Shown: piece by piece, positions 6,133 through 64,000 of the stretch
Numbering within the stretch: position 1 is the stretch's first letter
How the letters are laid out: the number at the start of each line of letters is the position of its first letter
NCBI RefSeq assembly: GCF_000521565.1
Contig: NZ_CP002701.1
Coordinates: 186,001 to 250,000 of the forward strand
Reading direction: 5' to 3'
From: Buchnera aphidicola str. G002 (Myzus persicae)
GTDB taxonomy: Bacteria > Pseudomonadota > Gammaproteobacteria > Enterobacterales > Enterobacteriaceae
Length of the DNA stretch: 64,000 nucleotides
Notes under the pieces: model-generated
What the model saw: only the letters and a program-made list of their open reading frames with translations
What the model was told of the DNA's origin: nothing
Database searches by the model: none
Position numbers and translations under genes: made by a program

Positions 6133-6395
6133 TTAAATTTTAATGATGATATTTCCATTAGGTTGGCAACAACATGGAAAAATATCTTGTTTTTTAAATA
6201 AAGCAGCCATAGGCTGTTTTATTTCATATTTTATTTGTCCTTTTATTAATTCAATACGACACATTCCACAATAACCAGATCGACATTGATATTGCATATC
6301 TATATTATTTAGTTCTAAAGTCAATAATAATGAAATATTTTTTCTGTATATAATTTTTTTTTTATATTTGTAATTTCAATGATAGAATAATTCAT
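6133..6395 (-). CDS. yfaE: YfaE, [2Fe-2S] ferredoxin for ribonucleotide reductase; frame broken in a poly(A) tract
   Basis: Small ferredoxin that in E. coli maintains the di-iron tyrosyl cofactor of NrdB. The iron-sulphur motif YQCRSGYCGMC and the late CCCQ cysteine cluster are intact. An ATG at 6395 lies one base past the nrdB stop and opens MNYSIIEITNI, but that frame ends after 24 codons. The ferredoxin frame has no ATG before the cysteine motif, only a TTG at 6324. The two frames meet in a 10-base A tract (plus-strand T, 6354-6363). One extra A gives an 87-residue protein whose YQC position matches the 84-residue E. coli YfaE. Either slippage rescue, a TTG-started short form, or a sequence error applies. 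Confidence 0.85.
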
Positions 6396-6396
6396 A

Positions 6397-7527
6397 TTAT
6401 AATTTAAATTTTTTAAATTCATTATCAGATACTTCTGAATCAATTTGTCCTACTAAATATGAGCTAATTTCTGTCTCTTGTGGAGCAGTCTGGACGTAAT
6501 CTGAAGTTAACCAAGAATTAATCCAAGGAATAGGATTAGATTGTTTTTCAAAAGGCATTTTTAAACCTATTGCATACATACGAATATTAGTAATATATTC
6601 GATATATTGACAAAGTATATCTTTATTGAGTCCAAGCATTGATCCATCTTGAAATAAATATTTAGCCCACTTTTTTTCTTGTTCTGCTGCTAGTATGAAT
6701 ATATTCATGGCTTCTTCTTTACATTCTATAGATGTTTGATACATTTCTTCATTGTTTTTCACATCTCTTAAAAGATTCAAAATATGTTGTGTTCCTGTAA
6801 GATGCAATGCTTCATCTCTTGCTATTAATCTTATAATTTTTGCATTACCTTCCATTAATTCTCTTTCTGCAAAAGCGAATGAACATGCAAAACTAACATA
6901 AAATCTAATTGCTTCTAATACATTAACACTTATTAAGCATAGGTATAATTTTTTTTTAAGCAAACTTAAAGTAATGTTAATATTTTTTCCTTTTACCAAA
7001 TGTATACCTTCACCGAATAAATGCCAATAACTAGTAATTTTTATTAATTCGTCATAGTATATGCAAATATTTTTAGCTCGATCGTTAATATGTTTATTGG
7101 AAATAATATCATCAAATATTAAAGATGGAGAATTAACAATATTTCTAATAATATGAGTATAAGAACGTGAGTGAATAGTTTCCGAAAAAGACCATGTTTC
7201 AATCCAGGTTTCTAATTCCGGAATAGAAATAATTGGTAGAAAAGCAATGTTAGGACTTCTTCCTTGAATAGAGTCTAATAATGTTTGATATTTTAAATTA
7301 CTAAGAAAAATATGTTTTTCATGTTCAGGTAAATTTTGAAAATCTATTCTATCTCGAGAGAGATCTATTTCTTCAGGTCTCCAAAAAAAAGAGAGTTGTT
7401 TTTCAATTAATTTTTCAAAAATATTATATTTTTGCTGATCATATCGGGCAATATTGACAGGTTGTCCAAAAAACATAGGTTCCTTTAGTTGATTATTTTT
7501 TTTTTTCGAAAAAATTGTATAAGACAT
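6397..7527 (-). CDS. nrdB: Ribonucleoside-diphosphate reductase class Ia, beta subunit
   Basis: Supplies the tyrosyl radical for reduction of ribonucleotides to deoxyribonucleotides. All landmarks of E. coli R2 are at their usual places: iron ligands Asp85, Glu116 and His119, the radical Tyr123 in HSRSYTHIIRN, and the second ligand set in ARDEALHLTGTQH. The 376 residues equal the E. coli length. The gene is 62 bases after nrdA and one base before yfaE, the enteric nrdAB-yfaE operon. An A11 tract (plus-strand T, 7496-7506) lies in its first 15 codons but keeps the reading frame. Confidence 0.97.
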   Translation of the reverse strand: MSYTIFSKKKNNQLKEPMFFGQPVNIARYDQQKYNIFEKLIEKQLSFFWRPEEIDLSRDRIDFQNLPEHEKHIFLSNLKYQTLLDSIQGRSPNIAFLPIISIPELETWIETWSFSETIHSRSYTHIIRNIVNSPSLIFDDIISNKHINDRAKNICIYYDELIKITSYWHLFGEGIHLVKGKNINITLSLLKKKLYLCLISVNVLEAIRFYVSFACSFAFAERELMEGNAKIIRLIARDEALHLTGTQHILNLLRDVKNNEEMYQTSIECKEEAMNIFILAAEQEKKWAKYLFQDGSMLGLNKDILCQYIEYITNIRMYAIGLKMPFEKQSNPIPWINSWLTSDYVQTAPQETEISSYLVGQIDSEVSDNEFKKFKL

Positions 7528-7589
7528 TTTTTTTCACCTAATATTTAATTAAATATTTTTTTTGATATTAAAAATATATTTTCTGATTT

Positions 7590-62786: not shown

Positions 62787-62949
62787 TTTTATTGTTATGT
62801 TTTAAAAATTATTTTTTGAAAGATTATTGAGATAAATTTATTTTTTAAAATATTTACGTAAAAATATTAAAAATTTTGTGAGTGCATGAAAATTTTTGGT
62901 CAATATGAATTTATTTTCTATATAGATTATTTTTTATAAATATGAAATT

Positions 62950-63426
62950 TTATCCGCGAGAAATACCCACAATACCAGATCGAGTTACTTCAATTACTTC
63001 TGAAATATTACGTATTATTTTTAGAAAAGAGTCTAGTTTTTTTGTAGTTCCAGATAATTGTAATATGTATGTCGTAGATGTAATATCTACAATTTGACCT
63101 CGGAATATTTCTGTAACATGTTTTATATCATCTTTCCTATAGTTATTCATTTGAACTTTCAACAACATAATTTCTCGTTCTATATATGAAGACTGATTAA
63201 TTTGTACTACTCTTAATACATCTATTAATTTATGAAGTTGTTTTTCGATTTGTTCAATTGCTTTTTCATCACCTACTGTTTGTATAGTCATTTTTGATAA
63301 AGTAGCATCTTCAGTTGGTGCTACTGTGATAGTTTCTATATTATATCCTCTTTGTGAAAAGAGTCCGATTACTCGTGATAATGCACCTGATTCATTTTCT
63401 AACAGAATAGATAAAATTCTTCGCAT
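62950..63426 (-). CDS. ilvH: Acetolactate synthase III, small regulatory subunit
   Basis: Regulatory partner of IlvI in branched-chain amino-acid synthesis. The N-terminal ACT domain (about 4-75) begins RILSILLENESGALSRVIGLFSQRGYNIE, the valine-binding region in E. coli. The second domain follows, with ILQLSGTTKKLDSFLKII, ending RSGIVGISRG. The 158 residues compare with 163 in E. coli. It is 4 bases after ilvI. The key ACT residues appear retained, so valine feedback is possible but cannot be proved from sequence. Confidence 0.96.
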   Translation of the reverse strand: MRRILSILLENESGALSRVIGLFSQRGYNIETITVAPTEDATLSKMTIQTVGDEKAIEQIEKQLHKLIDVLRVVQINQSSYIEREIMLLKVQMNNYRKDDIKHVTEIFRGQIVDITSTTYILQLSGTTKKLDSFLKIIRNISEVIEVTRSGIVGISRG

Positions 63427-63430
63427 TTTT

Positions 63431-64000
63431 TTAGGAAACCTCTTTTTTCCTTAACCACATTTCATTCATACCACCGCCTTGGATTTGCATAGGATAAACA
63501 TGCTCAGAATTATCTATTTGGACGTCTACAAAAACTAAATTACCATCAGATAATTTATTCAATGCTAATTTTAATTTTTTTTCTAGTTCTTCAGGATTAG
63601 TGATTTTAATACCAATATGTCCATAAGATTCTGCTAATTTGACAAAATCAGGAAGTGAATCCATATAAGAATGAGAATGCCGTCCAGAATAAATCATATC
63701 TTGCCATTGTTTAACCATACCTAAAGAAGAATTATTAAGATTCAATACTAATACTGCTAAATTATATTGTCGTGCTGTCGATAGTTCTTGAATATTCATT
63801 TGAATACTCCCATCTCCAGTTATACAAATAACAGTTTCTTGAGGTAGAGCCAACTTAACACCTAATGCTGCAGGTAATCCAAATCCCATGGTGCCTAATC
63901 CACCTGAATTAATCCAGCGTCTAGGTTTATTAAATTGGTAATATAATGCAGTGAACATCTGATGCTGACCAACATCTGAAGTAATATAAGATGTGCCTTT
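63431..64000 (-). CDS. ilvI: Acetolactate synthase III, large catalytic subunit (5' part outside window)
   Basis: Thiamine diphosphate enzyme condensing pyruvate to acetolactate (or with 2-oxobutyrate to acetohydroxybutyrate), first step to valine, leucine and isoleucine. Only the C-terminal 189 residues are inside the window. The frame is open to base 64000, reading SYITSDVGQHQMFTALYY upstream of the internal Met at 63958. The TPP motif is visible as GDGSIQMNIQELS and NLNNSSLGMVKQWQ. The end is HVYPMQIQGGGMNEMWL. It is followed by ilvH in the enteric order. The gene must continue past the edge by about 380 codons, judging from the family length. Confidence 0.96.
   Translation of the reverse strand, partial: KGTSYITSDVGQHQMFTALYYQFNKPRRWINSGGLGTMGFGLPAALGVKLALPQETVICITGDGSIQMNIQELSTARQYNLAVLVLNLNNSSLGMVKQWQDMIYSGRHSHSYMDSLPDFVKLAESYGHIGIKITNPEELEKKLKLALNKLSDGNLVFVDVQIDNSEHVYPMQIQGGGMNEMWLRKKEVS

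Follow-up and report, generated by a model that had tools for sequence, protein, structure and literature searches.

Frame breaks at poly(A) tracts in the window

The window is a stretch of 64,000 nucleotides from the genome of Buchnera aphidicola str. G002 of Myzus persicae (contig NZ_CP002701.1, positions 186,001 to 250,000 of the forward strand), and contains the division and cell wall (dcw) gene cluster. Six of its genes, yfaE, ung, truA, mrcB, murC and ftsL, change reading frame, and in every case the break is at a long run of adenines, from A10 to A17. They are listed in Table 1, together with murF, which carries a similar tract. Gene names were assigned using NCBIfam models and comparison with E. 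coli MG1655. The original prediction was that each of the six genes is broken once, within its tract, by one missing base in five cases and one extra base in ung; that the genes are otherwise under normal selection; and that slippage of RNA polymerase on the tract produces a fraction of correct mRNA.

The tracts are present at the predicted lengths, and the sign of each break is as predicted. In yfaE, ung, truA, murC and ftsL, frameshift-aware alignment to the E. coli MG1655 proteins locates the frame change at the tract or no more than about 15 bases from it. For mrcB, the match to E. coli begins only at residue 68, downstream of the tract, and the frame change is instead supported by comparison within Buchnera: mrcB of the Lipaphis symbiont has an in-frame ATG at the corresponding place. 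The body of the window mrcB is matched by the NCBIfam PBP1b model from position 43 of 764, and the frame that encodes its membrane-anchor segment has no ATG, GTG or TTG between the last stop before that segment and the segment itself. The mrcB lesion affects the N-terminus only, leaving the start out of frame with the membrane anchor and the body of the protein. The E. coli alignment, which used a low penalty, also produced additional small shifts (a cancelling pair near residue 430 of murC, and shifts at residues 10, 104 and 111 of ftsL), none of which is present in the Buchnera-anchored alignment.

In ung, the prediction of a broken gene probably does not hold up. The window copy is probably intact, because an ATG at 14264, upstream of the tract, is in the frame of the body and would allow a 213-residue enzyme to be made with no shift at all.

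Off-frame runs in the window depend on run length, and this is not a chance effect. A total of 136 coding A or T runs of at least eight bases were scored (the A12 of ung and the A10 of mrcB are too near the start to be included). None of the 125 runs of length 8–9 is off-frame, compared to four of the 11 runs of length 10 or more.

Table 1 Positions of the features discussed, numbered from the first base of the window
Feature	Positions	Strand	Tract	Frame at the tract	Remarks
yfaE	6133..6395	(-)	A10, 6354-6363	1 base missing	Open over 6321-6443 and over 6133-6354
ung	14239..14905	(+)	A12, 14279-14290	1 extra base with respect to the N-terminal frame	Body ORF 14264-14905
truA	29855..30654	(+)	A11, 30497-30507	1 base missing	Final ~46 residues in another frame
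mrcB (PBP1B)	30753..33046	(+)	A10, 30767-30776	1 base missing	Tract shortly after the ATG
murC	50729..52170	(-)	A10, 52116-52125	1 base missing	449-residue ORF begins at the Met within GIGGIGM
murF	56842..58224	(-)	A14, 57485-57498	In frame	
ftsL	61539..61804	(-)	A17, 61591-61607	1 base missing	
tmRNA	16997-17359				
panC and panB	27378-29040				
mutT	35828-36322				

Recurrence across the genus

The region is held by 35 of 36 members of the genus, including the genome of the window itself. Orthologous stretches from these were aligned to intact Buchnera proteins, and 19 survey genes were cross-checked against E. coli proteins. For 23 of the genomes three regions each were used, some of which therefore end within a gene (pta, thrC, panB and others), and G007 is represented by the dcw cluster only. 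Genome G005, although rated 99% complete, gave no match to ftsI or murG, and was left out. A copy was scored as singly shifted if it contained a single internal shift and was free of internal stops, giving 138 cases in all (Table 2). Shared ancestry means that counts by genome are not independent; counts of maximal clades, on a FastTree tree of 19 proteins (7,505 columns, midpoint root), are the safer figure.

Table 2 Single frame shifts in the surveyed genomes
Gene	Genomes with a single shift	Sign -1	Sign +1	Remarks
murF	28/35	27	1	
ftsL	19/35	18	1	
ung	16/34	2	14	
murC	14/35	14	0	
yfaE	14/34	11	3	
murD	9/35	9	0	8 at a site close to the start, most with no long run
murE	8/35	7	1	
ddlB	7/35	6	1	
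truA	7/34	7	0	
mrcB	4/35	2	2	
mutT	3/29	1	2	
ftsW	2/35	2	0	
prmC, pta, nadK, thrB, coaE, mraY, ftsI	one each			

No single shift was found in nrdA, nrdB, gyrA, secA, aceE, aceF, lpd, ftsZ, ftsA, murG, ilvH and 24 further genes. The shifts are closely associated with long runs: a run of at least nine bases is present at the junction in 116 of the 138 single shifts, whereas of the 114 indels scored in multiply decayed genes 3 lie near such a run. The recurrent murD site, close to residue 18 and shared by 8 genomes that form one clade, is probably a start-site effect, and is outside the run-of-nine counts. Our calls match published states, in so far as these are given in the accessible text: murF is intact in Ap-Tokyo and off-frame in Ak, Ua and Sg, and murE and mraY are off-frame in Sg (PMC3164680).

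The murF tract is in frame in the window, whereas 28 of the 34 remaining genomes are singly shifted at that site. Frame states toggle on the tree, with 7 steps for murF and 12 for ftsL. Parsimony places the -1 state of murF at the root of the 35 genomes, which would make the in-frame A14 of the window a reversion; at such rates of change, the root state is uncertain.

Three further observations concern genes in the same stretch. In 3 genomes beyond those with single shifts, the mutation-avoidance gene mutT carries stops or additional lesions. Both panC and panB are present in the window, but no open orthologue clustered in the regions from the survey genomes labelled G002 and G012. The tmRNA is the sole tRNA-like gene that ARAGORN identifies in the 64 kb.

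Polarity of the shifts

Outside ung, the shifts are almost all of one sign. At runs of at least nine bases there are 93 single shifts of -1 (one base missing) and 7 of +1 by genome, or 59 and 7 by maximal clade, with 43 and 4 of the latter in wall genes. Multiply decayed genes provide a control, and they have a much weaker bias, of 68 deletions (-1) to 48 (Fisher's exact test, p = 9e-6 against all clade counts and 3e-5 against wall genes). Close to runs of at least seven bases the decayed genes give 28:15, and the difference remains (p = 0.003 for all, 0.004 for wall genes). The decayed-gene sets are slightly different for the two purposes, with 116 indels for the polarity ratio and 114 for proximity to runs. 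Given that the off-frame tracts range in length from 9 to 18, drift alone would not be expected to favour one class modulo 3.

The direction of the bias is the one that rescue by transcription would need. Transcription errors in Buchnera homopolymers comprise 151 insertions and 16 deletions (PMC5574713), and the polarity of the genomic shifts does not differ detectably from this ratio (p = 0.81).

The ung tract has the opposite sign, with one extra base in 14 of its 16 off-frame copies. This speaks against run lengths having been uniformly under-called, and it disfavours a universal bias towards deletion or under-calling as the cause of the polarity, though not decisively, given how few long runs the control contains. 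It might also be proposed that N-terminal tracts are irrelevant, in ung and perhaps in mrcB, because translation begins at an alternative start codon. The body-frame ATG upstream of the tract in the window ung is in favour of this. As a general account it is extremely unlikely: the window copies of murC and yfaE have no body-frame start upstream of the tract, and it has no bearing on truA, ftsL or murF. Alternative starts do not explain the sign of ung either, since they are non-specific across the genus. Such a start is present in 8 of the 14 +1 copies and absent from 6, and it is found in both -1 copies too.

Selection on either side of the tracts

Outside the tracts, the genes were predicted to be under normal selection, and this is what is found. 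The median pairwise ratio of nonsynonymous to synonymous substitution rates (dN/dS) in murF is 0.23 before the tract and 0.26 after it in off-frame copies, and 0.21 and 0.22 in in-frame copies. Off-frame copies of the other genes give similarly low values on both sides: 0.37 and 0.28 for murC (at site ~97), 0.29 and 0.22 for ddlB, 0.26 and 0.29 for ftsL, 0.32 and 0.36 for truA, 0.37 and 0.24 for yfaE, and 0.29 and 0.22 for murE. In-frame copies are in the same range or higher (0.53 after the tract in truA, 0.39 in ftsL), except for murC before the tract, at 0.26. By comparison, decayed mrcB has a dN/dS of 0.50. These values apply to the parts long enough to be scored: the upstream part of the window murC (site ~20) is too short, and the N-terminus of mrcB is outside the scoring.

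These results bear on the suggestion that the off-frame copies are recent loss-of-function alleles, that is, young pseudogenes of which the remainder has not yet decayed. In its favour, mrcB has decayed in many relatives, shifts are more frequent in more divergent genes (see below), and frame states toggle. Nevertheless we regard it as very unlikely. Neutral loss would favour neither sign, and murF, off-frame at the root by parsimony, retains a dN/dS of about 0.25. There is not one internal stop in the 105 copies of murC, murE and murF. The mur copies therefore have neither the relaxed selection nor the further lesions that mark a pseudogene, both of which are seen in mrcB in at least 11 genomes. 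Random young pseudogenes are thus disfavoured by polarity and dN/dS together.

Gene specificity

Off-frame tracts are concentrated in particular genes. With ung excluded, 90 of 337 tracts of A10 or longer are off-frame, and they are confined to 13 genes. The 11 wall genes have 198 such tracts, of which 71 are off-frame, and the remaining genes 139, of which 19 are. Clustering by gene as strong as this was matched in none of 5000 length-matched permutations. A further 20 genes have 111 such tracts with none off-frame, but these were chosen for having none, and the permutation is therefore the test. Among wall genes, 8 of 11 are singly shifted at a run of nine or more in one genome or several, as against 7 of 43 others (Fisher's exact test, p = 0.0007).

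Part of this reflects tolerance. The incidence of shifts increases with protein divergence (Spearman 0.44, p = 0.0009, 54 genes). Within the same range of divergence, the wall genes still stand out, at 8 of 10 (murD counted as having none) against 4 of 16 others (p = 0.014) if ung is counted as having none, or 5 of 16 (p = 0.04) if ung is included. Tolerance accounts for part of the pattern and the wall-gene excess persists, as measured in a single region that contains the dcw cluster. Adaptive control of dosage was considered as an explanation and set aside: only the wall-gene excess is behind it, the frame states toggle, and divergence explains part of the incidence.

Reliability of the tract lengths

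The genome of the window has 651,316 bases in two contigs, the second of which (7,799 bases) is the Buchnera leucine plasmid. It was assembled from 454 and 36-base Illumina reads; poly-A regions were low in coverage, and low-coverage regions were checked by Sanger sequencing, according to the accessible text of the genome paper (PMC3890641). Errors of homopolymer length in the assembly were the alternative named in the original prediction, and the read types and low coverage are in their favour, as are the excess of indels in G002 and the in-frame ftsL described below. As a general cause they are nevertheless highly improbable. Random homopolymer error is hard to reconcile with off-frame tracts that cluster by gene more than length-matched permutation allows, the same sites are off-frame in genomes of many species, and ung has the opposite sign.

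In addition, the off-frame states of truA and murC probably recur beyond G002, because the protein clusters headed by the window's sequences include contigs other than the G002 chromosome (643,517 bases) and the protein listing contains no longer near-identical form of either. The cluster headed by the 220-residue TruA has 3 member sequences on 10 contigs, the longest of 643,542 bases, and that headed by the 449-residue MurC has 3 members on 2 contigs, the longest of 643,504 bases; the protein lengths are those of the heading sequences.

In ftsL, an error is a real possibility. Two in-frame FtsL sequences are equal to the window sequence outside the tract: one, of 88 residues, comes from a contig of 166,632 bases and has five lysines at this point, and the other, of 85 residues, comes from a contig of 995 bases and has two. 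Their records give no source, and we take them to be from M. persicae Buchnera on the basis of this identity.

Slippage as the proposed mechanism

On the basis of these observations, we consider it likely that these are working or partly working genes whose tract lengths have drifted and which are rescued by slippage on poly(A). The lesions recur within the genus, they are nearly always -1, and they occur in otherwise undamaged genes with low dN/dS on both sides. Slippage rescue would be the best reading for yfaE, truA, murC and ftsL, and probably for mrcB. The original interpretation is thus supported in part, and weakened for ung, which has an alternative start, and for ftsL, which is in frame elsewhere.

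The proposed sequence of events is as follows. Replication slippage would alter the lengths of long poly(A) tracts. On a tract that is one A short, RNA polymerase would slip backward and add an A to a fraction of the mRNAs, so restoring the frame in that fraction and giving a reduced yet sufficient amount of protein. Selection would then tolerate the one-base-missing class, purge most one-base-extra alleles, and maintain the coding sequence on both flanks. Enzymes needed in small amounts, among them those of lipid II synthesis and division as well as TruA and YfaE, could tolerate such shifts, while high-demand genes could not. Tract lengths, frame states, recurrence, polarity, purifying selection and gene specificity are read from the genomes themselves; from these we infer that RNA polymerase slips in these genes, that protein results and that a low dosage suffices.

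The mechanism is already known in the genus. The slippage cases of Buchnera and Blochmannia (Tamas 2008, as described in the accessible text of PMC5009743) resemble those described here in genus, in the type of tract, in the presence of wall genes among them, and in having conserved flanks; they differ in that the present cases are known from the genome, and that ung and ftsL are special cases. The homopolymeric frameshifts of Buchnera discussed by Degnan (2011; PMC3164680) are likewise recurrent and convergent, with murF as an example. In that work, as far as its accessible text goes, 6 of 8 tabulated Buchnera genomes have 8–18 frameshifts each and the other two have 1 and 3; the shifts are read as convergent inactivation, with correction by slippage and regulation raised as possibilities, and we met no test of polarity or gene specificity. 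Jiang (2013; PMC3890641), working on the same assembly, joined gene models that had been divided at poly-A tracts and considered them to be under purifying selection; in the accessible text these genes are treated in general and not by name. Blochmannia has comparable single indels in poly(A) or poly(T) tracts of otherwise intact genes, but in only 4–8 genes per genome, and those named include dnaX, dnaG, dxs, pth and ribF (PMC3017870, PMC4389277, accessible text). New here are the bias in sign, the specificity for particular genes and the link to Rhopalosiphum maidis described below.

There are several points that weigh against slippage rescue. If ung is included, the clade counts become 61:18, which still differs from 68:48 (p = 0.009) and no longer from 28:15 (p = 0.20), and the decision to exclude ung was made post hoc, after its sign had been seen. 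The polarity control has few long runs, as seen from the 3 of 114 indels noted above, and a bias towards deletion in the replication of long runs could account for part of the polarity. Traverse and Ochman saw no frame-restoring transcription error in Buchnera (PMC5574713), which counts against a large effect of slippage there. The mrcB gene is multiply decayed in no fewer than 11 of the 34 remaining genomes, the adjoining wall cluster being conserved. The G002 assembly differs from each of the other strains by 45–51 indels, compared to 16–28 among the other three (PMC3890641, accessible text), and some of the G002-specific indels may be errors; the ftsL tract is either variable in G002 or wrong.

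Finally, the correction might take place in translation instead, by -1 ribosomal frameshifting on the A run at sites of the A AAA AAA type, in which case the RNA would keep its genomic length. This predicts the same polarity, and slippery heptamers are present within every A10 run, so that the two processes are inseparable by sequence. However, 12–50% of transcripts are reported to be corrected in frameshifted Buchnera and Blochmannia genes (Tamas 2008, cited in the accessible text of PMC5009743), and RNA-level correction thus exists in the genus. We therefore regard ribosomal frameshifting as unlikely.

The cell wall of Aphidini Buchnera

Slippage rescue may also account for a puzzle concerning the cell wall. 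In a study from which frameshifted coding sequences were removed, Aphidini Buchnera are said to be without murF, murC and/or murE (PMC9116674, here and below in its accessible text). The same study used labelling to show a wall around the R. maidis symbiont (line Rma-NM-1), which is said to be without murC, murE and murF, and invoked novel adaptations to explain it. The R. maidis Buchnera genome was polished with PacBio and Illumina reads (PMC6451198, accessible text).

In G025, presumed to be the R. maidis Buchnera (the labelled line may differ), murC, murE and murF each have one base missing at an A10 tract, and each aligns to E. coli over nearly its whole length with no stops. More generally, in the clade of R. 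maidis and Aphis symbionts (14 genomes), the ratio of open to singly shifted copies is 5/9 for murC, 8/6 for murE and 0/14 for murF, and none is decayed. This suggests that MurC, MurE and MurF of Aphidini Buchnera would be made through slippage. To be set against this, G025 has in addition a shift in murD, at a T8 run close to residue 46, as well as a -1 shift in ftsL and a +1 shift in yfaE, which would mean that still more rescue is needed. We found no earlier link between the R. maidis wall and off-frame murC, murE and murF in the literature searched, which covered few subscription papers.

We tentatively put forward a wider proposal, to which we give slightly less than an even chance: that much of the lipid II pathway of the surveyed Buchnera is run by slippage, of polymerase or ribosome; that the one-A-missing class is nearly the sole one tolerated, as being repairable; that the off-frame state of murF goes back to the common ancestor of the surveyed genomes; and that the "losses" of murC, murE and murF in Aphidini are the off-frame state, which would explain the R. 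maidis wall.

Annotation pipelines discard genes of this kind as pseudogenes. If they work by slippage, then no new pathway is needed to make the wall, and tables of gene loss in symbionts need to be rechecked. The sign bias provides a cheap, genome-only test for expression-level repair of frameshifts in AT-rich symbionts. A candidate further step is that tract length may act as a heritable throttle on wall synthesis.

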